Shown: one piece after another, positions 25,949-37,912 of the stretch
Layout of the letters: each line of letters starts with the position of its first letter
Position numbering within the stretch: the first letter of the stretch is position 1
Assembly (NCBI GenBank): GCA_016190245.1
Contig: JACPQY010000071.1
Location: 62,001-126,000, forward strand
DNA length: 64,000 nucleotides
Source: Nitrospirota bacterium
Lineage (GTDB): Bacteria; JACPQY01
Direction: 5' to 3'
Notes under the pieces: generated by a model
Told to the model about the DNA's origin: nothing
Database searches by the model: none
The model's input: the letters and a program-made list of their open reading frames with translations, nothing else
Position numbers and translations under genes: made by a program

Positions 25949-25977
25949 AGTATACAACTCCATGCCTTTCTTGTCAA
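25949..25977 (-). promoter_or_regulatory. Sigma70-type promoter of the dcw operon
   Basis: On the minus strand the -35 is TTGACA (25977-25972), then a 17-bp spacer, then the -10 TATACT (25954-25949). The -35 matches the consensus fully and the -10 at five of six positions. Transcription would start near 25942, leaving a 5' leader of about 40 nt before the mraZ ATG at 25901. Confidence 0.85.
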
Positions 25978-26280: not shown

Positions 26281-26976
26281 TCAGCGCAGGGAGGCAAGCC
26301 CCGAGCTCTCCCGACTCCCCTGGAGTAGCCCGCCATGACCGCCCTTCATCTCTTCCGCAGGCGGTGAGGCCGGCGCTTCGATGGCGGAGGTCTCGAACAC
26401 AAGAAAGGCCACGGCAAAGTCCGCCAACTCTCCTTGGGGGTCGTGGAAACCGGCCGGCCCGAGCCACCGGGCCGTCACGTGGATCGCCACGAGGCCCGGT
26501 TCGCGGAACCAGCCCGGCTCGACCTCGGCGAACCCGCCATGACTTTCCAAGCCCTCGGCGAAACCTACGAATTTCTCCCCCGCGTACCGGCGCAGGCGCC
26601 TTCGTTCGATGTCCGGCCGGAACGGCACCCCGCGCGTCTCGCTGATTTCCTCCCGCGTGTATCCCTCGGGTGCTCGATTCAAGTACATCCCCTCGATCAG
26701 GCGAAGGATGGGCTCCCGGGCCTCGGTCACCTCGGGCGGCACCGCAGTGAACGGCTCGGCGTGGACCAGGTAGGGATCCCCCATGAATTGAACCAGCAAC
26801 CGCTCCTCGCCCAGCATCAACACGACGTCGTTCGGGGGAATCGGGATCACGAAAGGGCGGGGCTTCGCGGTTTCGGCGGGCCGGGGGCAGAGGGCGACGC
26901 AACCCGCGAGGAGACAGGCCACAAGGGAGGCGAACAAAAGGCGGCGCGCGGTGAGCCGCACTGCTTTCCTGTTCAC
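26281..26976 (-). CDS. Lipoprotein of unknown function, end of T4SS operon
   Basis: 231 residues with a basic N-terminus (MNRKAVRLTARRLLF) and lipobox LLAGC. The mature part is proline-rich (KPRPFVIPIPPND) and then mixed alpha/beta, with no family I can name. It lies 31 nt downstream of the TraV-like gene on the same strand, so it may be an extra outer-membrane-anchored part of the same envelope complex. That role is inferred from context only. Confidence 0.55.
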   Translation of the reverse strand: MNRKAVRLTARRLLFASLVACLLAGCVALCPRPAETAKPRPFVIPIPPNDVVLMLGEERLLVQFMGDPYLVHAEPFTAVPPEVTEAREPILRLIEGMYLNRAPEGYTREEISETRGVPFRPDIERRRLRRYAGEKFVGFAEGLESHGGFAEVEPGWFREPGLVAIHVTARWLGPAGFHDPQGELADFAVAFLVFETSAIEAPASPPAEEMKGGHGGLLQGSRESSGLASLR

Positions 26977-27007
26977 TCTCCTCCCCTCGCCCTTTGCCCT
27001 TTCCCGT

Positions 27008-27463
27008 TCACTTTCCCTCCGGCGGCTTGGACTCGGGATGCAGGGGCAGGAGCGTTTCGACTGCGGAGGGTTGTGCGTCTCCGGGCATCAGCTCGATCTC
27101 CGGGTTCCAGTCCCAGTCGCGGACGACCACGGTGAGCCAGTGGCCGTGCACGAAGATGCGGCGGTCTATCCGGTGGGAGGGGATCCATACGAGGATCGTT
27201 CGCGGGGGCATCATGATCGGCACGACCGGTTCTTCGTAGCCGAGCGGCTGCTGCACCTCGAAATTCTCCTTCAGAGGCTCGACCACCTCCTTCGCGCCCT
27301 CTCCCAAGGCCTCCGCGTAGATCTGAGCCGTGGACTTACCCTTCATCGGGCCGCCGCAGGCCGGGAGCGAGAACAAGGAACAGAGAACGGTGAACAGCAA
27401 GGCGGGGAGCCGGGGAACCAGGGAGCCTGAGAGCCGGACGATGGCGTGCCGAAACCCGCTCAT
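27008..27463 (-). CDS. TraV-like T4SS outer-membrane lipoprotein
   Basis: 151 residues with a lipobox-like signal (LFSLPACGG). The conserved stretch MPPRTILVWIPSHRIDR then GHWLTVVVRDWDW resembles the TraV core, where a Pro-Arg-x-x-x-x-x-Trp-Ile segment leads into a (V)VxxxxW strand. In F-type systems TraV is the VirB7-like lipoprotein that anchors TraK and TraB at the outer membrane. It overlaps the TraK-like gene by 4 nt, the usual K/B/V neighbourhood. Family assignment rests on short motifs, lipobox and position. Confidence 0.6.
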   Translation of the reverse strand: MSGFRHAIVRLSGSLVPRLPALLFTVLCSLFSLPACGGPMKGKSTAQIYAEALGEGAKEVVEPLKENFEVQQPLGYEEPVVPIMMPPRTILVWIPSHRIDRRIFVHGHWLTVVVRDWDWNPEIELMPGDAQPSAVETLLPLHPESKPPEGK

Positions 27464-28440
27464 GGAGAGGTCTTCCTACCCGAGGTGTTTCCGGCGGCGC
27501 CGCGGTCGTCCCAGAGGCCGGTCCGCGAACCACCCGTGAAGGCCGCACGGTTCACCACGACGTACGCTTTCGTGCGCTTGGGGTAACCCTTGAACGCCTC
27601 CACCGAGTCGGCCGGTTCGTGCGGCGCGAGGCGCTGATCCGTGATCGTCGCGCCCCGCAGGCCCTTCACGCGGAGCTGCTGGGGATCGAGCCGAATCGCC
27701 TCGTTCGAGACGTTCTCCACGTCCACCACAAGCCCCAGCATCTCGACCCCTTCGTAGACCCTGGCCAGTCGCCACTGGGTGAGTTTGACCTCCTCGAGGA
27801 ACAGCTCCCCCCCCGCGTCATGGATCTGGTAGCCGGGGACCGGCTTCTCCTCCGTCATCGCCACGATGAGCCGGATCACCTGCGGCGTGGGACCGACATA
27901 CATAGGGCCGGGGGCCTCCTCCGGAGCGGCCACGCTGATCTCCACGCTGTCATCCTGACGGTCCGGTGGCTCCACCTGCTGGATCTCGAAGACATACGTC
28001 CGACCGGCCTCGTCCTTCCCATAGAGGTTCATTGTGGGGAGGGGCTGGCGGGGATAGAGGTATGCGCGCTCCTCCACCTCTTGGACCGTCATCGCCTCTT
28101 CACTGGGGTGGGTGAGGTAGACGAGGGGTGCCGGGAAAACGATCTCGGTCAACTGGCCGAGAGCCGTCTTGATGATGATCACCTGCTTGCCGCCGGGGAG
28201 CCAAGGCACGGCTCGGATCGCCCAAGCCTCGGAGCCGCCGAGAACGGCGGCCACAAGGGCGCTGAGCAGAAAAACAGTGAACCGTGAGCGGAGATTGGGT
28301 TTCAGCAAGCGATCACCCCCACTCGCACCCTCCCCCGTCGAGGGGGAGGGGAAAAGAGGGCGAGGCGCGCTCTTTCTTGTCCCTTCCCCCCTTGAGGGGG
28401 AAGGTGAGGATGGGGGGTGCTGAACGGTTGCGTGTTTCAT
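27460..28440 (-). CDS. TraK-like (VirB9-type) T4SS secretin-like protein
   Basis: 326 residues from the ATG at 28440, which overlaps the traB stop (ATGA). A signal peptide (TVFLLSALVAAVLGGSEAWA) is followed by beta-rich sequence typical of TraK (VPWLPGGKQVIIIKTALG, QLTEIVFPAPL, VYVFEIQQVE-like strands, MLGLVVDVENVSNEAIRLDP, AYVVV). TraK forms the outer-membrane ring with TraV and TraB. Residues ~10-42 are encoded by a dispersed GC-rich repeat (SPSPSRGEG, PSPSTGEG), so the signal peptide starts only near residue 46. A TTG at 28308 may be the working start. Confidence 0.68.
   Translation of the reverse strand: MKHATVQHPPSSPSPSRGEGTRKSAPRPLFPSPSTGEGASGGDRLLKPNLRSRFTVFLLSALVAAVLGGSEAWAIRAVPWLPGGKQVIIIKTALGQLTEIVFPAPLVYLTHPSEEAMTVQEVEERAYLYPRQPLPTMNLYGKDEAGRTYVFEIQQVEPPDRQDDSVEISVAAPEEAPGPMYVGPTPQVIRLIVAMTEEKPVPGYQIHDAGGELFLEEVKLTQWRLARVYEGVEMLGLVVDVENVSNEAIRLDPQQLRVKGLRGATITDQRLAPHEPADSVEAFKGYPKRTKAYVVVNRAAFTGGSRTGLWDDRGAAGNTSGRKTSP
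28315..28425. repeat. Dispersed GC-rich inverted repeat inside traK-like 5' end
   Basis: It is built from CACCCTCCCCCGTCGAGGG / GAGGGGAAAAGAGGG and a second half CCCTTCCCCCCTTGAGGGGG / AAGGTGAGGATGGGGGG. This is a common CCTCACCCT...GGTGAGG-type dispersed repeat. It stays in frame with the traK-like gene and translates as Ser/Pro/Gly-rich sequence. Confidence 0.55.
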
Positions 28441-29663
28441 TGAACCTCCTCTCGAAACAGATTGGCGATTTCCGGAATATCAATCCCTTCCTCGGTCACC
28501 AGCGTCCCATCAATCCCACCGGGGATGTCCACCGTGGGCAGGAGCCGGGCGGCTTCCTCGCGCATGAACTTCGCGATGTCCGCCATGGCCTGGGACAGGG
28601 CGGAGGTCGAGGCATGTGTGAGAGCATCCCCCGTGACGATTTGCCTTTCCGTACCGTCCGCCGCCACCACCCGCGTCACTTCCTGCACCGAAAAGGCCTG
28701 GCCCAGCCCCGCCGCAAAGCCCGCGATGAAACTTGCGCCCAGCCTCCGGCCGCGGCGGTCGGTCACCTTGCCCGCGATCCCCAGACCGCCGTCAGGCCCG
28801 GTGACGAACGCCGTGAGCTCCCGGTCCAACGTCCGGCCGCCCGGGAAGACGCAACTGAACAGCCGCGCCGTGATCCTGACCCTCTCGGAAGAAAGATCTC
28901 CATCGGCCCTTCCGAGAACGGTGCAACCCTTCATCGGGATCGAGTAGGCGTTGGGGGAGACCCAGTTGTCCATCACGACCATCGCAACCGGGAATGTGGT
29001 ACTCCCGCTCGTGCCGGAGGGATACGCCGAGACCCCGTTGAGCGTGCGCACGCGCACGAGGCTGCCGGGGGGCAGGTAGTAGGGAGACGCGACCACCCCC
29101 CGTGTACCCCGCCCCGCTTCCGCCCTGGGCTTTTCCTGCTTCTTGGGCACCACGATCTTGGGCGGAGGCAGGGGTTCCACTTCCGCCTTCTTGGCCCCCG
29201 CCATGCCTCCCCCCGCCCGAATCGCGTCGAGCTGGTCCTGGACGTTCTTGCCGACCGCTTGAACCGACAAACGCAGTTCTTCCAGCTTGGTTGCCGTCCC
29301 CCCGCGCTCCTCCTGTTCCTCCTTACGGGCGTTCTCCATCTCCGCGCGCCAGAGGCGCAACTCCCTCTGCCCCTGCTTGAGTTCCTCAAGTTCCATGTTG
29401 ATCCGTTGACGCACCACCGACTCGTCCACGTGCCCGAAATCGATCGCACCCCCGCGGGGCCTGGCCTGGGGAACCATCTCGCCCATCGGACGGGATGTGC
29501 CGGCCTGTCGCATGGGGGTGAAGCCGGCCTCTTCATCTTCGCTTCTCAGGACGACCCAGCCGATCCCCACCATGAGCACGACCGCGCCGACGCCCAGCGC
29601 CATGTAGGCCTTTCGCCCTTCGAGCCCGTACCGCTCCAGCCAAGCCTTCAATCGTTCACCCAC
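28437..29663 (-). CDS. TraB-like (VirB10-type) T4SS core protein
   Basis: 408 residues. A cytoplasmic N-terminus and one membrane helix (MALGVGAVVLMVGIGWVVL) are followed by a Pro-rich and coiled-coil periplasmic arm (~70-140). The conserved beta-barrel domain comes next: YYLPPGSLVRVRTLNGVSAY, MKGCTVLGRADGDLSSERV, ARLFSCVFPGGR, AFVTGPDGGLGIAGKV, DRRGRRLGASFIAGF. This is the TraB pattern of F-type systems; TraB spans both membranes and links the inner complex to TraK/TraV. Start is GTG at 29663 with GGAGGTG nine bases upstream. It is the firmest assignment in this operon. Confidence 0.88.
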   Translation of the reverse strand: MGERLKAWLERYGLEGRKAYMALGVGAVVLMVGIGWVVLRSEDEEAGFTPMRQAGTSRPMGEMVPQARPRGGAIDFGHVDESVVRQRINMELEELKQGQRELRLWRAEMENARKEEQEERGGTATKLEELRLSVQAVGKNVQDQLDAIRAGGGMAGAKKAEVEPLPPPKIVVPKKQEKPRAEAGRGTRGVVASPYYLPPGSLVRVRTLNGVSAYPSGTSGSTTFPVAMVVMDNWVSPNAYSIPMKGCTVLGRADGDLSSERVRITARLFSCVFPGGRTLDRELTAFVTGPDGGLGIAGKVTDRRGRRLGASFIAGFAAGLGQAFSVQEVTRVVAADGTERQIVTGDALTHASTSALSQAMADIAKFMREEAARLLPTVDIPGGIDGTLVTEEGIDIPEIANLFREEVQ

Positions 29664-29702
29664 TGCGCTTCACCTCCATTCCACCCTGACTCCTCTTTCC
29701 CA

Positions 29703-30875
29703 TCACCATCCCAGTGCCTCGCGGACCTTCGCCCCCACCGGCAAGAGCACCTTCCACACGAGCAATGCCGCCAGGGCGCCGCCCAGCACGATCGTGATTC
29801 CCGCCTCGACGTACAGGTAGCGGTTGTGCATGCCGAGGTACGGGCCCAGGTGCGTGCCCGTTCGGAACACCGATTCCTGGATGATGTGCAAGAGGTCCGA
29901 ATCCGAGAAGGCCGCCGGGGGGTGGGCTGCTGCGTAGCGATCGACGAGATGCAAGACATAGAGCGGGAAGACGGCCAACTGGAAGAGCCACAGTGCGGCC
30001 AGGGAATACAGCACGTTCGTCACGCCACCGGGCAGGAAGACCAGCATGAAATGGAGGGGAACCGCATAGATCCAAACCTTGACGAGCCAGCCCATGACCG
30101 TGCCCCAGAATTCCGCGTCGGCAACCCGCAAGCACCATTCGCAGAGACCGGTTTCGGGTGGGGCCGCCTGCACCGAGGCCGCGGCCGTGGTCACCCCGTC
30201 AGAGGCCCGTTGCGATGCGACCTCGTAGAGCGCCCGCCGGCCGGCGAAAAAAACGGCGTTGTTGGACTGCGTTCCCTTCCAGGCGTCAAGATCCGCCTGG
30301 GCGGCCAGATACAGGCTGAGACAGGTCTTCATCTCCGTGCCCACAGGCGCATGGGCGGCGGCGAGTGCGATGGCGGCCTGGCCCCAGTCTCCGTTCCGGA
30401 TGGCTGTCTTGACCGTGGTGGGAAAACATTCGTAGCGGAGGAAGGTGTCGAGCGATTCCTCCGTGTCGAAATCCAGGCGGGCCGAAGTGTCCAGATCCGC
30501 CGAGCGACGGAACGGAAGGACCTGCGCGGAATCGTAGAACCCAGTGACCGCGGCATCGTCCACAAGTTTGATGATCCCGTGCGAAACCGAATTCGTGAAT
30601 TTCACCGCACCCGAGATGAGAAGCGATGCACGATCCTTGCTCTCCGTGCCCGGCTGTGGCGCGACCAGCGCCAGCGCAAGGAGCCCCACGAGGAGGTGGC
30701 TCAAGGCGCGGGACCACCCCGCCGTGCCGAAACTCAGAGCCAGCCGAACGAGGAGCGTCGCCGCGCCCGCCCCGGCAATAAGCGGCGCCCAGGGCTGCAT
30801 CTGCGTCAGCACCGTGCCGACCTCGATGAGACCATCGCTCACCAAGTCCGCTTCCGTGGCAGTCAGGTGGAACAT
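29703..30875 (-). CDS. Polytopic inner-membrane protein, TraG-N/VirB6-like
   Basis: 390 residues. Two to three helices lie near the N-terminus (MQPWAPLIAGAGAATLLVRL; ALSHLLVGLLALALVA). A ~110-residue periplasmic part with cysteines (YECFP, TCLSL, CEWC) follows, then at least three C-terminal helices (VWIYAVPLHFMLVFLPG; LYSLAALWLFQLAVFPLYVL; GITIVLGGALAALLVWKVLL). The topology and the LWLFQLAVFPLY segment recall the N-terminal domain of TraG or VirB6/TrbL channel proteins. Similarity is topological, so the name is tentative. It lies between the TraB-like gene and an orphan secreted protein on the same strand. Confidence 0.5.
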   Translation of the reverse strand: MFHLTATEADLVSDGLIEVGTVLTQMQPWAPLIAGAGAATLLVRLALSFGTAGWSRALSHLLVGLLALALVAPQPGTESKDRASLLISGAVKFTNSVSHGIIKLVDDAAVTGFYDSAQVLPFRRSADLDTSARLDFDTEESLDTFLRYECFPTTVKTAIRNGDWGQAAIALAAAHAPVGTEMKTCLSLYLAAQADLDAWKGTQSNNAVFFAGRRALYEVASQRASDGVTTAAASVQAAPPETGLCEWCLRVADAEFWGTVMGWLVKVWIYAVPLHFMLVFLPGGVTNVLYSLAALWLFQLAVFPLYVLHLVDRYAAAHPPAAFSDSDLLHIIQESVFRTGTHLGPYLGMHNRYLYVEAGITIVLGGALAALLVWKVLLPVGAKVREALGW

Positions 30876-30909
30876 CTTGCCGTATCCGTTCAGCGCCCTC
30901 GATATGAAT

Positions 30910-30980
30910 CCTCACCCTTTCCCTCTCCTTTCCAAGGAGAGGGGACTCCCTCTCCCTGAAAGGGAGAGGGAGGGGTGAGG
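30910..30980. repeat. Dispersed fold-back repeat between T4SS genes
   Basis: The outer arms CCTCACCC and GGGTGAGG enclose two inner hairpins, CTCTCCTTTCC/aAGGAGAG and CCCTCTCCCT/AAGGGAGAGGG. It sits in the 139-nt gap between two genes of the T4SS operon. It could act as an mRNA-processing or attenuation structure, but its composition is that of a common dispersed repeat, related to the one at 28315-28425. Confidence 0.6.
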
Positions 30981-31014
30981 GTTTTCCCAATGGGCCTCAA
31001 CGCATACATCTTGC

Positions 31015-32133
31015 CTACCTCCGATCGCCCCAGTGGGACACGAGGCTCGCGAGCACGAACCGCCCGAAATCGCTCTCCTCGCGTGCGATCTGTTCGTCGA
31101 GCTTGCGAAAGTATTCCGCGTCGCCCAGCCGGATCCGAATCCGTTCCCGCAGGTCTTCGAGCTGCTCGATCAGCGCCTCTTTCTCGCGCGGCGGCACGCC
31201 GATCTGCGAGGCCGCGGAACTCAGGAGAGCCGCCGCAAGGCGAGCTTCCTGGTGCCAAGCCAGGGTGGCCAGCGCCTTTTTGTACCCCGCACATTCGGTC
31301 GTCTTCGGGTAGGCCTTGGCGTAATGCTCGGGCTCGATTTGGAAGGCCAAGCTGCTCAGGTCGGTGTCCGTCCACGTAATCTGAGTGGGGATGGTGGACT
31401 TGTCACAATCCACGCCCAGCGCAAGCTCGATGACCGAAGTCTGGAGAGATGAAATGCGCGTGGCTGATTCCGGCGGATCGACCCGCTCGAAGCCCCAAGA
31501 CGTGTACTTCATGTCCCGCGCGTAGCCGCGCACGAGCGCCGGCCCGCCCTGGTCGAAGTACTTGTCGATCAGGAAAACATCCTTGTCCCAGGCGGGGGAG
31601 TAGTCGGAAACGAACTTGGCTTGATCCGTCTTCAGCTCGTTGAGGCAGTCTTGGCGGCCGTTGGGCGAATTGGCGTTCTGGTGAATACATTGTTGCAACG
31701 CCGTGTAGACGTCCGGGTCAACCGACATCCACACCGTGTCGCCGCCGCCGTAGAGGCTCTGACTCTGGGCCTGGTAGTCGCGCTGGAACATCTCCGTGGC
31801 GTCCACCAAGGCGCTGGCGGCCGCCTGCTCTCCTTTGTGAGCGCCGTAGAGGCTGTTGTACGTCTGGGTTAGGGCGACTTGGTTCAAGAGCTGGGACAGA
31901 CGCGAGTCCGCGTTCGTCGCGTAGTCGGTGAGAGTCAGAGCCACCATGACTTTGAACGGGCTGTCGGCGGCTGGGGCCTTGACCCAGCCGCTCGGGACCT
32001 CCACCGGCGGCAATCTGTCCAAGATGGACGGCATTTCGACTTGGGATTGCGCCATGGATGCCATGAGCACGACGGCCGGCATCGCCAACCCCAGCCACCG
32101 GCTATTCCACACTCGTACCCGCCGTGTTCGCAT
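31015..32133 (-). CDS. Secreted protein of unknown function in T4SS operon
   Basis: About 372 residues. The ATG at 32133 starts a basic stretch (MRTRRVRVWNSR) and a signal peptide (WLGLAMPAVVLMASMAQSQ). The mature protein is helical and contains Gln/Asn-rich segments (RLSQLLNQVALTQTYNSLYG; FQRDYQAQSQSLYGGGD) and three or four cysteines (CIHQN, DCLNE, DCDKS, ECAGYKK). The C-terminal ~90 residues are a charged helix (REKEALIEQLEDLRERIRIR). Its place between the TraU- and TraG-N-like genes suggests a periplasmic T4SS component, perhaps VirB5-like. I could not match it to TraH, TraF, TraW or TrbC. Confidence 0.55.
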   Translation of the reverse strand: MRTRRVRVWNSRWLGLAMPAVVLMASMAQSQVEMPSILDRLPPVEVPSGWVKAPAADSPFKVMVALTLTDYATNADSRLSQLLNQVALTQTYNSLYGAHKGEQAAASALVDATEMFQRDYQAQSQSLYGGGDTVWMSVDPDVYTALQQCIHQNANSPNGRQDCLNELKTDQAKFVSDYSPAWDKDVFLIDKYFDQGGPALVRGYARDMKYTSWGFERVDPPESATRISSLQTSVIELALGVDCDKSTIPTQITWTDTDLSSLAFQIEPEHYAKAYPKTTECAGYKKALATLAWHQEARLAAALLSSAASQIGVPPREKEALIEQLEDLRERIRIRLGDAEYFRKLDEQIAREESDFGRFVLASLVSHWGDRR

Positions 32134-32201
32134 CGCGCGATCCGTGAACACCCCTTGCTTGCCGTCTTGCCGCTCACTGTTCACTGCTTGCTTTGTCGGC
32201 T

Positions 32202-35200
32202 TCACCGACACTCCTCCGGCGGCGGCTCGCCGCGCCCCTCCGCGAGGCGGCGCTGCAGCTCGCACCGTGACTTGATGAACTCGGGATCGTTGCGGGTGTC
32301 TTTCTTCAGGCTCTCGCGCAACCGCCGTGTCGGCGAATCCAATTCGTCGTCCTGGATCTCCCGCTGCGTCAGCCCCGTCGCCGGATGGGGCTTGTCGAGA
32401 TCCTTGCTCTCGAACGGGCGGACCGAGTCCCGGCTGCGTTTGAACTCCCCCGCCGCTGCGTCCTCGATGTTTTGATCCGTTTCGCCCTCCTTCCGGGACG
32501 GGTTCAGCGTCTCCCGAACCGCCCGGCCGAACGCCTCTTCCTGCGACATCCCCGCATAGGCGCCCGAGGCAATCTTCCGCGCCGCCGCCAGCATCAGGTT
32601 GGGTTGACTCTGAAGCTTGGCAAACATGCCGATGGAAGCGATCACGCGGGCGAGGGTGATCTCGTTGGGATCGTCGTCCTGCACACCCTTCCCGCCGAAC
32701 AATCCATCCGTCTGCTTGGCCATTTCCCCTCCGCCCGGGCCCCCCAGGACGCCGAGCGACTGCGCCAACTCCATAAGCCGGTCGAACAGGTCGGCCAGCT
32801 TCGTCCCGAGATCTTCGATCTGCCCGGCCACCGTGTTCAGGGGACTCCGGAGCGGCGCCATCACGGGGCCGAGCGAGGCCGAGGTCAGCGTGACCTGTGG
32901 CAGCGATTCAAGTTGCGTCGCCAGCTTCCCCGCCGCACGGCCGAACTCGATGGCGGGCGCGTGGCCTTTCGCCCCAAGCGTGCGCCCCTCGGACTCCACC
33001 GCGCGCAGGTCGGCCGCAATCGTCGCAATCTGCGCCGTGGGCAGGATCTGGAACGACGACTCGATCTGCCGCGCGTAGGCGTCGGGAATGTCCCGAATGT
33101 GGTCGGCCAAGTCCTTGGCTAGGGGTTGAAGGTTGTTCCGGATGCGGTCCACGGCCTGCTGGACGCGCGTTTCGAGGCTCGCCGAGTTGGCGGCCAGTTC
33201 GTCCGAGAAGGCTTGGAGCTCGGACGAGAATGTGGCGAGCGCAATGATCCCCTCGAACACCTCCTCCTTGCCCGCGGAGTCCAGGTTTGCCATCAACTTG
33301 AAAAACCGCTTGGCCGAGCGCATGACGCCCTTGCCGCTCGACTGGAGCTGGTTCAACTCCTTGTCCGGGAAGCCCACATCTTTCAACTGATCGACGAACT
33401 GCTTGAGTTCCGTCTCCACGTGCTTGCCCAGATCGGTCAGGAAATCCGCGCTCCCCATCCGGGCCACCGCCTTGCGGACATCGCCCACGTGGGAGAAATT
33501 GAGGGCGCGGAGATCTTGCTGAAGCTTCTCCACGGCCCGAGCAAAAGCCTGCGCGTCCGATGCGGGCAGGGTCGTCTGCTCGCGGGCGGAGCGGAGCATC
33601 GTCTCGAGGTCGCGCGTGTGGCGCAGGGTCTCGATCGTGCCCAGAACGTCCTGCACCCGCTTGAGGTCGGGATGGTTGGGCGTGGGAACTTGCACGAACG
33701 CGCCCGCCAGATCGGAGAAGTTGCGAGGCGGGTTCTTGATGAGCTTGACGCCCGTGCAGGCGAGGTCGAGTCCCGCCCTGACGTCGGCCAGGAGTTGGGC
33801 CTTCTGGTGTATGTAGGCCACGGAGGGCAATTGGGGCTTGGATGGCGTGCCCTTGCCGTGGTGGATCTCTCGAATAGTGGAATGGACGGCCTCCTTGCCG
33901 CACGCGTCGGGCAGCGCACTCCTGAGCGGCTCATCCTCCAAGAAGCTCTTGACCTCGTTGCGCGCCTGAGTCATGGCGCTGACCGTGCCCGCGATCGCCT
34001 TCACATCCGAGAGCCCCTTCCCGCAGGCCTCGAACGACCCGAGCGTCGCGATCGTATCGAGCGCCTTGTAGCCCGTGTCCAGCGCGCACTCGGCGGTGTA
34101 CACGTACCCCGCCGCCTCGGGAATCTCCAGGGCTATGGCCACAGCCTGAATCGCCCCGTTCACAAGCGCGCCGCTGAACTGGTCCTTCGCCAAGGTCATC
34201 GCCTCTGACAACGCTTCCTGAAGCTCCTGGATGGTCTTGGCCAACGCCTTGATGCGCTCGACCAGATTGAAGATCTGACGGACGGCGGTCTGGATCTTCT
34301 CGATGAAGTCGAGCACATCCTGGGCAATGTCGGCCACCTGCTTCGCCCGGAGCGCGGCCTCCGTGGCGCCACCCGAAAAAACCGACCCCGCTAGTGCAAT
34401 CCCCTCCTCCAAGCCCCGGGCGACGATATCCACCGTGGCTTGCATGGTTTCCCCTGCGAGGCAGTCCTTCTGCTCCTTCCAGATGAGGAACGCAAAATGG
34501 TCCGTGCCGGCGGGCGCCTGGGGCTCGTCTTTCCAGTCGGTCGGCCGCCACCCGATGAGCCTGGGACGACCCCACCTCTCCGGGTAGACCATCTGGATGG
34601 CCAAGTTGCGGGTGAACTGAACGTCGCCGGGCTTGGAGAGCGCGAAGGAATAGGGCGGGCGGTTCTCCCAAGCCTTCGACAGCTCTTGCTTGTGCGCGGC
34701 AATCTGATCATCAGTTGGTGCAAGCATTTCAGCGGCTTTCTGTAGGATGGAATCCAGATCGATCGCCTTGACCTCGTGATCGGCCAGATCTAGGAGATCC
34801 TCGTCGGCGTCCTCGCCGAGCTGCTCGAGCTGCTCGTCGGTCATCCCAAATCCCCCCTGCGGAGGCTGCGTCGAAAGAATCGCCTTCAATCGGTCCCCCG
34901 CCGTTGTCCCCGGAACGGCATCGAAAGCGAAGATGTCCTCGGCATCACTCCCACGGCACAAGCTCCCCAGCCCCCCGCGCGTGGCATAGAAAGCCGCGCG
35001 CAACGCGGCGATCTCGGCCGCCACGATGGGATTGGAGTGGACCACGTGGCCCGAGATCGCATTCATCGGCCCGATCGACAGCCACTGGTCCCGCAAGGGA
35101 GCGTCTTTCTCGGCTTCCCCCGACTTGAGCCCCTCCCAGATCCGATAGGTCTTCGCCAACTCCTCCTCCGTCGGTGGCCAAGGGACTCCGAACCGCCACC

Positions 35201-35915
35201 GCAAGGGATCGAGCTCCGAAAAATAGCACGGCTTGACCTTCACCTCCGCCATCATCGCCGTGGCCCACTGCTCCGGATGGGCGGCATTCTCGAAAATGGG
35301 GTCATAGGGGTTGAACTCGAACTGGAAAACGTGGGCCTCGTAGTAGCTGCCGCGGCGGCTCGGCCCGCCCTCGGCCCCGGCCATGCGCTTCAACACCTCG
35401 CGCCGGAGGTTGGCGGGCACAACCTCCTCGTTCCGGGTGGCGGCATCGAAGAGGGGCACAATGAGCCATTCGTCCATCTTCTTGAAGAGGCATCCGACGA
35501 ACTGATCGACAAAGGGCAGGAGGGCCGACTGCCCTTGCCGGGGCACCAGTTCCACAAAGTAGACAGGGCGCTGGATGTAAATCTTGGGGAAGACGAGCTT
35601 GCAACTGCCACCATCACGCCTCAGCCGGGCCTCGAAACCCCTACCGGCCGGGTCAAATGCCGCCTTGAGCTCCGCCTCGAGAGCCCCACGCAGGGTCCCG
35701 ATCAGGATGGCCGCGAACTCCCCGATGTCCTGCGGGTTGGGCCATGACAGCGAGCACCCCTCGTATTCCGCCGTCGTATCCTTGAGCGGGTTGGGCGGCT
35801 TGCGGGGCGGACCGGGCCCCCCGGCAATCGCGCCTGCGGTTTCCGGCGACGCCGCCAGAGAGACCAAGACGGCTATCGCGGCGAGCCAATTGCTCCCGCG
35901 CGCCTGAACACCCAT
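32202..35915 (-). CDS. Giant TraU-like T4SS periplasmic protein with coiled-coil extension
   Basis: 1237 residues with a signal peptide (WLAAIAVLVSLAASPETAGA). Residues ~50-490 follow the TraU pattern: early cysteines (C54, C105, C142), FPKIYIQRPVYFVELV, CYFSELDPLRWR, VVHSNPIVAAEIAALRAAFY, then AIQMVYPERWGRPR and HFAFLIWKEQKDC near 441-485. TraU is a ~330-residue periplasmic mating-pair or pore protein of F-type systems. The remaining ~750 residues are mostly long helices with coiled-coil character (EKIQTAVRQIFNLVERIKAL; VQQAVDRIRNNLQPLAKDL) and few cysteines. I know of no such TraU extension. The ATG overlaps the stop of the upstream lipoprotein gene. Confidence 0.65.
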   Translation of the reverse strand: MGVQARGSNWLAAIAVLVSLAASPETAGAIAGGPGPPRKPPNPLKDTTAEYEGCSLSWPNPQDIGEFAAILIGTLRGALEAELKAAFDPAGRGFEARLRRDGGSCKLVFPKIYIQRPVYFVELVPRQGQSALLPFVDQFVGCLFKKMDEWLIVPLFDAATRNEEVVPANLRREVLKRMAGAEGGPSRRGSYYEAHVFQFEFNPYDPIFENAAHPEQWATAMMAEVKVKPCYFSELDPLRWRFGVPWPPTEEELAKTYRIWEGLKSGEAEKDAPLRDQWLSIGPMNAISGHVVHSNPIVAAEIAALRAAFYATRGGLGSLCRGSDAEDIFAFDAVPGTTAGDRLKAILSTQPPQGGFGMTDEQLEQLGEDADEDLLDLADHEVKAIDLDSILQKAAEMLAPTDDQIAAHKQELSKAWENRPPYSFALSKPGDVQFTRNLAIQMVYPERWGRPRLIGWRPTDWKDEPQAPAGTDHFAFLIWKEQKDCLAGETMQATVDIVARGLEEGIALAGSVFSGGATEAALRAKQVADIAQDVLDFIEKIQTAVRQIFNLVERIKALAKTIQELQEALSEAMTLAKDQFSGALVNGAIQAVAIALEIPEAAGYVYTAECALDTGYKALDTIATLGSFEACGKGLSDVKAIAGTVSAMTQARNEVKSFLEDEPLRSALPDACGKEAVHSTIREIHHGKGTPSKPQLPSVAYIHQKAQLLADVRAGLDLACTGVKLIKNPPRNFSDLAGAFVQVPTPNHPDLKRVQDVLGTIETLRHTRDLETMLRSAREQTTLPASDAQAFARAVEKLQQDLRALNFSHVGDVRKAVARMGSADFLTDLGKHVETELKQFVDQLKDVGFPDKELNQLQSSGKGVMRSAKRFFKLMANLDSAGKEEVFEGIIALATFSSELQAFSDELAANSASLETRVQQAVDRIRNNLQPLAKDLADHIRDIPDAYARQIESSFQILPTAQIATIAADLRAVESEGRTLGAKGHAPAIEFGRAAGKLATQLESLPQVTLTSASLGPVMAPLRSPLNTVAGQIEDLGTKLADLFDRLMELAQSLGVLGGPGGGEMAKQTDGLFGGKGVQDDDPNEITLARVIASIGMFAKLQSQPNLMLAAARKIASGAYAGMSQEEAFGRAVRETLNPSRKEGETDQNIEDAAAGEFKRSRDSVRPFESKDLDKPHPATGLTQREIQDDELDSPTRRLRESLKKDTRNDPEFIKSRCELQRRLAEGRGEPPPEECR

Positions 35916-36529
35916 CAGAGGTCAACCTCCTCGAACTCGCCCGCACACTGGAACGAGCCTTCGATGGTTTTCACCTCGCCAATGTCACCGGCCTTTTCGG
36001 GCGTGCAGCTCGATGTGCATGTGCACTGAAACGTGCCCGACCGCTCGTCTTGGCCAATCGTCAGACTGCACTGCAGCGATGTCTCGAACGCACGCATGCC
36101 TAGTGCCCAATTGGCGCCTCCCGGGTATGTGCCTGGTCCGGCGTACTCATAAGGTGTCAACAAGATTACCCCCAGGAGACCGCGCTGAGATCCATCACTC
36201 GCGTAGAACCCGTAGCTTTTCGCCGTTATGCCTGAGTCGAGCTCACAAGCCCCTCCTGCCTCGAGTCCTCGGTCCCCCGGCGCTCGAAAATGGTTCTTGT
36301 CATACCGAAACACCTTCCCCTTGACGTCGGCCGCCCCGTCCGTCACCGTGATCGTGACCGAGCCGCCGTAGGCAACCTTCCTAGTCGGCTTCCTGTTCGA
36401 TCCACCATCCTGAACCGCGGAATCGCCCTTGTCGTCCCCGCCACAGCCCGCCAGGCTGCCGGTTAGTAGCAAGACCGTGAGCAGCCAGACGGTGATGCGG
36501 GACGAGAAATGGATCAGGACAATGTTCAT
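35915..36529 (-). CDS. Lipoprotein of unknown function
   Basis: 204 residues with signal peptide and lipobox SLAGC. The mature part begins with a Gly/Asp/Lys-rich linker, then beta-rich sequence (GGSVTITVTDGAADVKGKVF) with an Ig-like look, and cysteines at GACELDSG, LQCSLTIG, QCTCTSSCTP and FQCAGE. The signal region is nearly identical in DNA to that of the next gene upstream, while the mature parts differ. A good ribosome site (AGGAGG) precedes the ATG. It is probably the second gene of the T4SS-containing operon. Confidence 0.6.
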   Translation of the reverse strand: MNIVLIHFSSRITVWLLTVLLLTGSLAGCGGDDKGDSAVQDGGSNRKPTRKVAYGGSVTITVTDGAADVKGKVFRYDKNHFRAPGDRGLEAGGACELDSGITAKSYGFYASDGSQRGLLGVILLTPYEYAGPGTYPGGANWALGMRAFETSLQCSLTIGQDERSGTFQCTCTSSCTPEKAGDIGEVKTIEGSFQCAGEFEEVDL

Positions 36530-36550
36530 GCTATGCCTCCTGTTCTCTCT

Positions 36551-37057
36551 CTAGAATTCCACGTCGCATTCGCGCGAGACCTTGCGCGTCAAAGCCTGCT
36601 CCTTCGTGGATGCCTCCTTGCATGGCTCACTCAGGCTCTTCAGCTCCGAGAGCATGATGATCTCTTCCGGATCTTCCTCCACATACCTGCACAGCGAGGA
36701 CGACTCCCTCGCCTCCAAGTCGGCGGCACACGTTTCCAAGGCCGCCCGGTATTCCTTCGTATCCGGCCAGTCGGTGTAGTCGCTTTCGCACGAGTCGCCG
36801 AGGGTGGAGGCGACATCCTCTGAAACCGAGTCCACATACGAGGTACAGGCTCCGACACGATCCGAATCAAATTCGTCCTCGAAAAAATCCTTTTCGCACG
36901 CCAGCAGCGCCCGACAGGACACCTCATTGAATCGCCTCTCCCCAGCCGAAATTGATGCATCGTCGCCCCCGCAGCCCGCCAGTCCGCCGGTGAGCAGCAC
37001 GGCCGTCAGCAGCCAGACGGTGAGGCGGGATGAGTGATACGTGATGCGAACGTTCAT
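36551..37057 (-). CDS. Small cysteine-rich lipoprotein of unknown function
   Basis: About 168 residues from the ATG at 37057 (MNVRITYHSSRLTVWLLTAV), preceded by AGGAGG. The lipobox is GLAGC. The mature part holds regularly spaced cysteines (VSCRALLACEKDF, GACTSYVD, DSCESDY, ETCAADLE, SLCRYVEE, EPCKEAS, RECDVEF), typical of disulfide-rich secreted proteins. It shares its signal peptide and upstream sequence with the following lipoprotein gene and is probably the first gene of the operon. Confidence 0.6.
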   Translation of the reverse strand: MNVRITYHSSRLTVWLLTAVLLTGGLAGCGGDDASISAGERRFNEVSCRALLACEKDFFEDEFDSDRVGACTSYVDSVSEDVASTLGDSCESDYTDWPDTKEYRAALETCAADLEARESSSLCRYVEEDPEEIIMLSELKSLSEPCKEASTKEQALTRKVSRECDVEF

Positions 37058-37628: not shown

Positions 37629-37912
37629 GCCTCGCGCGCGGAGCGGTGCATCGTCTCGAAGTCGCGCGTACCGCTCGAAACTTCGCCTCACCTTCCTGGT
37701 CCGCCGCGGCAGACTGGCTCGGCCAGTACTCGCAGTACTGGGCCTTCCTGGCCGTGTTCCGCAGCGTCTCGATCGTGCCCAGAACGTCCTGCACCCGCTT
37801 GAGGTCGGGATGGTTGGGCGTGGGAACTTGCACGAACGCGCCGGCCAGATCGGCGAAGTTGCGAGGCGGGTTCTTGATGAGCTTGACCCCCGTGCAGGCG
37901 AGGTCGAGCGCG
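37629..37912 (-). pseudogene. Broken partial copy of the TraU-like gene
   Basis: Positions 37629-37667 and 37759-37912 are near-identical to 33579-33770, codons ~715-779 of the TraU-like gene, including ACTGVKLIKNPPRNF and VQVPTPNHPDLKRVQ. The copy is interrupted by ~90 bp of unrelated sequence (37668-37758) containing the hairpin CCAGTACT cgc AGTACTGG. It has no start, signal peptide or other parent sequence, so it is a gene fragment, not a functional paralog. Confidence 0.8.

Follow-up and report, generated by a model that had tools for sequence, protein, structure and literature searches.

A motor-less second envelope gene set of a chromosomal F-type-derived type IV secretion system in a Nitrospirota genome

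What can the envelope part of an F-type conjugation machine do in a chromosome when no motor is encoded beside it? This question is raised by a nine-gene operon lying next to the dcw cluster in a draft metagenome-assembled genome (MAG) of a Nitrospirota bacterium (G000; 84.8% complete, 86 contigs), which we analysed within a window of 64 kb (the whole stretch studied, G000:C63:62001-126000). The original prediction had recognised here F-type envelope genes framed by lipoprotein genes, with no ATPase, coupling protein, relaxase or pilin, and had proposed either a domesticated channel or a decaying integrative element. We conclude that the operon encodes a second, motor-less envelope set, kept by selection, of a chromosomal type IV secretion system (T4SS) that derives from the F type and has no detectable conjugation genes. 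At about even odds (a probability of roughly 0.5), it is an alternative envelope module of this system, using in trans the motor of a paralogous locus on another contig, C79. Indeed, the occurrence of a motor-less envelope set together with one full copy elsewhere, which carries the only motor found, suggests interchangeable outlets with a shared motor. For comparison within the phylum, which is poorly sampled, we used one other genome, the near-complete (97%) G001, which belongs to a sister genus.

The operon and its products

The nine genes are collinear and contiguous on the minus strand (26281-37057), with intergenic distances that range from -10 (an overlap) to +139 bp, and all nine reading frames are open (Table 1). 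The lipoprotein genes are present at both ends, as first placed. The assignment of TraB, which had been called solid, is borne out by Pfam (PF03743, E=3e-19), by the NCBIfam model of F-type TraB (NF010289, E=9e-21) and by its best relative of solved structure, the F-plasmid TraB (7spb, E=6.5e-17). TraK passes the cut-off of PF23536 (E=1.4e-9) and aligns with F-type TraK at 98.5% probability in hhalign. Its ATG at 28440 is preceded by AGGAGG, but the start that is used is uncertain, because a dispersed palindrome-like repeat (28311-28440) lies in frame between this ATG and the signal peptide. A similar repeat is found in frame in the traC gene of C79 (L007 869-956). No TraV profile is matched directly by the TraV-like protein; the assignment is supported through the C79 paralogue, to which it is 45% identical over 134 aa and which itself passes the Pfam TraV family (PF09676, 23.1 bits for a cut-off of 21, E=1.6e-4). 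A profile of the TraV-like proteins also matches TraV genes of Omnitrophota (best 4.7e-20).

The giant secreted protein on its own falls below the cut-off of Pfam TraU (E=0.018). We therefore used hhalign to compare a profile of four giant homologues with one of F-type TraU that was assembled from named loci. Because this match reaches 95.5% (E=1.5e-8, 232 columns, giant 100-397 to TraU 76-327) while 12 other Tra profiles give at most 0.2%, the giant is a TraU, corresponding to its N-terminal third (about residues 90-500), plus a long extension. The TraU-like character proposed at the outset is thus upheld. Matches of the giant to coiled-coil families in Pfam (Prominin, MLKL, apolipoprotein etc.) do not reach the cut-off, and we attribute them to helix of low complexity. 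Giant paralogues were found on C79, C29 and C31 and in G001; the window protein shares no more than about 22-28% identity with them but is intact. Neither 72,556 plasmids nor viral contigs yielded a match to the giant. Single-sequence AlphaFold models of its N-terminal part and of the orphan secreted protein were unusable (mean pLDDT of 37 and 36, respectively).

The polytopic membrane protein has two N-terminal transmembrane segments, a periplasmic domain of about 190 aa and further transmembrane segments at 263-312 and 353-384. This is the topology of the TraG N-terminal region (TraG-N), and its position in the operon also fits. It does not match the TraG profile (0.2%), so that the TraG-N label stands as regards topology and is unproven as regards identity; the Omnitrophota counterpart does match TraG (hhalign 84.9%). 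The secreted protein called an orphan remains one: it reaches at most 1.5% against 13 Tra profiles, and its homologues occur only in the paralogous loci of C79, C31 and contig C1 of G001. The last lipoprotein carries a second TraK C-terminal domain (TraK_C), with a match to PF23536 below cut-off (0.0012) and an hhalign probability of 68% alone and of 94.7% together with its C31 homologue. At the other end of the operon, the signal region of lipoprotein A shares 78% DNA identity with that of lipoprotein B over 115 nt, and a homologue of lipoprotein B (40% over 79 aa) lies directly upstream of the lone giant gene of C29.

No ATPase, coupling protein, relaxase or pilin gene adjoins the operon, and a family scan of the operon itself recovered no TraL, TraE, pilin or motor. 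The orphan, membrane, TraV-like and giant proteins match no TraW, TraN, TraF, TraH or TrbC profile, five subunits that were not sought genome-wide.

Table 1. Features of the envelope operon and the adjacent relic (window coordinates)
Feature	Coordinates	Strand	Basis
Lipoprotein A, 168 aa, first operon gene	36551..37057	-	ORF; ATG 37057, alternative 37084; lipobox LAGC
Lipoprotein B, 204 aa	35915..36529	-	ORF; lipobox LAGC
Giant secreted protein, 1237 aa; N-terminal TraU domain and long helical extension	32202..35915	-	hhalign
Orphan secreted protein, 398 aa	31015..32211	-	homologues in paralogous loci only
Polytopic membrane protein, 390 aa, TraG-N/VirB6-like	29703..30875	-	topology and position only
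TraB/VirB10 homologue, 408 aa	28437..29663	-	PF03743, NF010289, PDB 7spb
TraB C-terminal (outer-membrane) domain, exchanged tract	28455..29081	-	78% identical to C79 copy
TraK homologue, up to 326 aa	27460..28440	-	PF23536, hhalign
TraV-like lipoprotein, 151 aa	27008..27463	-	lipobox LPAC; C79 paralogue
Lipoprotein with second TraK C-terminal domain, 231 aa, last gene before mraZ	26281..26976	-	PF23536, hhalign
Relic of part of the giant gene	37631..37908	.	direct repeats

One motor locus and several envelope sets

Exactly one convincing VirB4/TraC was found in G000, and it is on C79. The absence of an ATPase thus holds at the operon but not for the genome, in which TraC accompanies a paralogous complete set. 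This C79 locus spans about 30 kb on one strand. In order, it has a VirB2-like pilin (a weak match, 0.0046), TraL (7.9e-9) and TraE (3.8e-9), then a giant TraU, the secreted protein, the membrane protein, TraK, TraB (56% identical to the window TraB), TraV, a secretin-like protein, TraC and a T2SSC-like protein, the last by a weak match below cut-off (1.6e-4). For coupling protein and relaxase, the absence first noted in the window extends to the whole G000 assembly for the families tested: no match to the coupling protein family PF12696 and none to the three large relaxase families PF03432, PF08751 and PF07514.

Several further observations concern the paralogous loci of G000. On C79, four-helix proteins of the 23S rRNA-intervening-sequence type are encoded between the TraV, secretin-like and TraC genes (L007:1643-4008), one of them fused in frame to the secretin-like protein. 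The same contig carries a second giant TraU-like gene (G000:C79:72838-76197; L087:7839-11198), preceded by two lipoprotein genes and followed by one for a secreted protein of 442 aa. A partial set on C31 (G000:C31:55427-60211, L026) comprises the secreted protein, the TraK_C lipoprotein and the beginning of a giant that runs off the contig; it is divergent beside mrdA-rodA (PBP2/RodA), on a side where G001 has mreBCD. Finally, C29 holds a lone giant TraU-like gene and its upstream lipoprotein (G000:C29:125231-129117, L024) with no other Tra genes.

In G001, contig C1 repeats the C79 order up to a secretin-like gene at the contig end, and contig C65 encodes a TraC 73% identical to that of C79 plus a T2SSC-like protein; these two contigs probably adjoin. 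Directly upstream of TraC on C65, tandem large lipoproteins (L027:114-14821), several of them 55-78% identical to one another and one with NHL repeats, are possible surface components or substrates of the machine. A separate conjugation-type locus on contig C20 has its own TraC with TraL-like, TraU-like and TraH-like proteins and the only coupling protein of G001. This genome thus has one TraC for the giant-type system and another for the conjugation-type system. Gene order in the relative does not bear out an ordinary integrative conjugative element: the giant-type set is interrupted by contig ends, its TraC being on the second of the two contigs, the only coupling protein is in a separate locus, and no relaxase in G001 passes its cut-off.

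The comparison of the two TraB copies of G000 indicates how the motor-less one has been kept. Their C-terminal domains are identical at 167/213 positions, against 47/165 in the N-terminal part. For the C-terminal domain, the nonsynonymous and synonymous divergences (dN 0.147, dS 1.16) give a dN/dS of about 0.13, and the window and C79 branches from their common node are equal (0.1246 vs 0.1240). The window TraB is thus not relaxed, and constraint is as strong on the motor-less copy as on the one linked to the motor. The trees do not tell the same story for all genes. In that of the giant, C79 and G001 C1 are sisters (support 100/100) and a grouping of window and C79 is rejected (p=3e-6), whereas in that of the TraB C-terminal domain window and C79 are sisters (100/99) and C79 with G001 is rejected (p=0.007). 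The TraV tree agrees weakly with that of the giant (window with C79 rejected, p=0.03). The affinity of the TraB C-terminal domain to C79, against the firm separation of the giant from it, shows that the two loci exchanged TraB sequence. On the simplest account, the window set is an old paralogue, and the exchange of its TraB C-terminal domain with C79 followed the split of the two genera. Such an exchange also argues that C63 and C79 come from a single organism rather than from a mixed bin. Recent gene conversion of TraB was considered and rejected, the four-fold (synonymous) sites being near saturation.

Chromosomal site and possible use of the operon

The location of F-type envelope parts on the chromosome beside dcw, with no local motor, was predicted correctly. 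mraZ and the dcw cluster lie 380 bp from the operon on one side; on the other, yceD-plsX follows beyond a gap with no convincing gene and one relic of the giant gene. In G001, yceD and mraZ are divergent neighbours separated by 311 bp, and the flanking genes on either side are fully syntenic; in the window the distance between the two is 12.8 kb, a space occupied by the operon. The operon is thus an insertion relative to the sister genus, and G001 has no such set at either the dcw or the mrdA-rodA site. In the insert, no integrase or relaxase ORF was recognised, and it has no flanking direct repeats and no tRNA at its borders, the only tRNA being 23 kb away. The relic consists of 39 nt at 92% and 156 nt at 96% identity to 33579-33770 of the giant gene, and was also recovered when the genome was searched with the giant (C63:99750-99914). 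A separate sigma-70-like promoter match for mraZ (25949-25977, TTGACA-17-TATACT) lies between the operon and the dcw cluster.

An insert of this size, with motor, pilin, relaxase and coupling protein missing locally, a short relic upstream of the operon and a dispersed repeat in the 5' end of traK, could represent an integrative conjugative element in decay, or a segment recently duplicated from C79 and now degenerating. The state of the genes speaks against decay: the nine frames are open, a giant that is intact at such low identity to its paralogues must have been kept for long, and the TraB C-terminal domain evolves under purifying selection without acceleration. The lack of an integrase, a relaxase, flanking repeats and a border tRNA speaks against it as well. 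We thus regard decay, one of the two initial proposals, as unlikely. The incompleteness of the assembly allows another account: the operon may be one part of a second, complete machine, with motor genes located in the 15% of the genome that is not assembled or on a contig that is not placed; the orthologous G001 system is itself split at contig ends. The operon is, however, bounded on both sides within its own contig, which leaves no room for an adjacent motor, and the near-complete G001 has a single TraC for its giant-type system. We regard this account, too, as unlikely.

The reading that we favour is an alternative outlet sharing the C79 motor, because motor, pilin, TraL and TraE were found only on C79 in the assembly and because precedents exist both for chimeras of F systems and for duplicated subunits. 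TraV, TraK and TraB, which suffice for the F core complex (PMC8770708), would build an outer-membrane core complex (OMCC), whose parts list is complete in the operon. Below it, the TraU-giant, the orphan secreted protein and the TraG-N-like protein would line the periplasm and the inner membrane; in F, TraU and the TraG N-terminus act together with the core complex (PMC7555446). Motor, pilin, TraL and TraE would most likely be supplied by the complete C79 locus, one motor serving more than one outlet, in the way that co-resident incomplete F systems yield working chimeras (PMC10939261). The machine is apparently non-conjugative, and we infer that its substrate is a protein or a surface structure rather than conjugative DNA.

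Several points weigh against such sharing. The diverged N-terminal part of TraB faces the inner-membrane complex, so that a different motor partner, or none, is possible; the exchange of the TraB tract is old, its synonymous sites being near saturation; and the TraK phylogeny is not resolved. In addition, the main limits of the analysis are a single draft genome, from which a second motor could be missing, and a single relative, and co-assembly with the C79 motor is inferred. The divergence of the TraB N-terminal part is also among the best arguments for a stand-alone domesticated envelope structure, in which the OMCC and the giant would form a passive conduit, an anchor or a surface organelle without VirB4, perhaps tied to cell-wall growth or division. 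Another is the placement of the window set by mraZ/dcw and of the C31 set by mrdA-rodA, sites that are free of such sets in G001. The operon without motor, pilin, TraL or TraE and the lone giant with its lipoprotein on C29 point the same way. The peptidoglycan neighbourhood is, however, a post hoc argument from two loci, the TraB C-terminal domain is homologous to, and was exchanged with, that of a motor-linked copy, and a TraG-N-like inner-membrane subunit and TraU have been kept. We rank the outlet sharing the C79 motor ahead of this structure, which we consider doubtful but worth keeping in mind.

A wider proposal is tentative: in this phylum a single TraC motor may serve several chromosomal outlets, each with its own TraU-giant, beside cell-wall clusters, forming a modular non-conjugative apparatus of a T4SS lineage shared with Omnitrophota, in which genes for a secretin and for parts of type II secretion systems (T2SS) or type IV pili (T4P) are linked to the F-type core.

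Comparison with known systems

The closest well-described relatives are the F-type (MPF_F) T4SSs of F and pED208. TraB, TraK, TraV and TraU of the window are homologous to theirs, C79 adds TraC, TraL, TraE and a pilin-like gene, and the OMCC parts list of the window equals that of the solved F core complex. The window set differs by having no motor, pilin, TraL, TraE, coupling protein or relaxase, nor the F-specific TraW, TraN, TraF, TraH and TrbC. It also differs by the long extension fused to TraU, by the orphan secreted protein, by extra lipoproteins, one with a second TraK_C domain, and by the gene order TraU-secreted protein-membrane protein-TraB-TraK-TraV. Since the motor and most of the F-specific subunits tested are lacking, we do not file the operon as a full F-type member; by homology it shares the core, and it probably works like the outer half of F-type systems.

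Incomplete envelope sets that work with subunits supplied in trans are known from co-resident incomplete F-like plasmids (PMC10939261); here, in contrast, both sets are chromosomal and old, with no sign of self-transfer. Duplicated envelope subunits are likewise kept in the vir-homologue T4SS of Rickettsiales and in Bartonella trw, with its amplified trwL and trwJ-H (PMC2653234), and the likeness extends to a conserved chromosomal T4SS whose duplicated, diverged envelope subunits are scattered over the genome (PMC2653234). Those systems are of vir/trw type, have kept VirD4 and duplicated single genes or small operons, whereas here a whole set of OMCC, TraU and TraG-N-like genes of F-type ancestry is involved, without a coupling protein of the tested family. 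If outlets and motor of T4SSs are separable in nature, as laboratory chimeras suggest, G000 offers a long-lived chromosomal example and the question becomes testable.

In a scan of 84,980 named genomes, TraB had no match, and TraC recovered 44 loci, the nearest being mostly in Omnitrophota MAGs (28-36%). One VirB4/TraC relative (L056) comes from a MAG labelled as a Thermoplasmata archaeon and is possibly on a contaminant contig. The Omnitrophota loci (L043-L048, also L095 and L098) have the order TraL-TraE-TraK-TraB-TraV-TraC, followed by a lipoprotein and a secretin (PF00263, 2e-35). L044 continues with GspE (1.8e-97), GspF (7.6e-41), pseudopilins and a TraU-like protein, which aligns with TraU at 98.4% and with the giant at 96.8% (hhalign). 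These loci are genetically joined T4SS and T2SS/T4P; genome G002 has the same content split over two loci. We found no description of this arrangement in the literature searched, to which most subscription papers did not belong, and this is no proof of novelty. Conjugative IncI2 plasmids encoding T4P are known (PMC9045228).

The Omnitrophota loci differ from the window in having GspE, GspF and pseudopilin genes linked to the core and a single TraU of about 300 aa, and the stretches read contain no giant and no motor-less second set. They resemble it in the TraL-E-K-B-V-C core, with TraV and TraB related to those of the window, in a short TraU-like protein and in the secretin; indeed, secretin-like and T2SSC-like genes flank TraC in C79 and in G001 as well. 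This comparison points to an under-described F-type branch in uncultured phyla, without detectable conjugation genes and coupled to secretin and pilus-assembly genes, and bears on how T4SSs became repurposed from DNA transfer.

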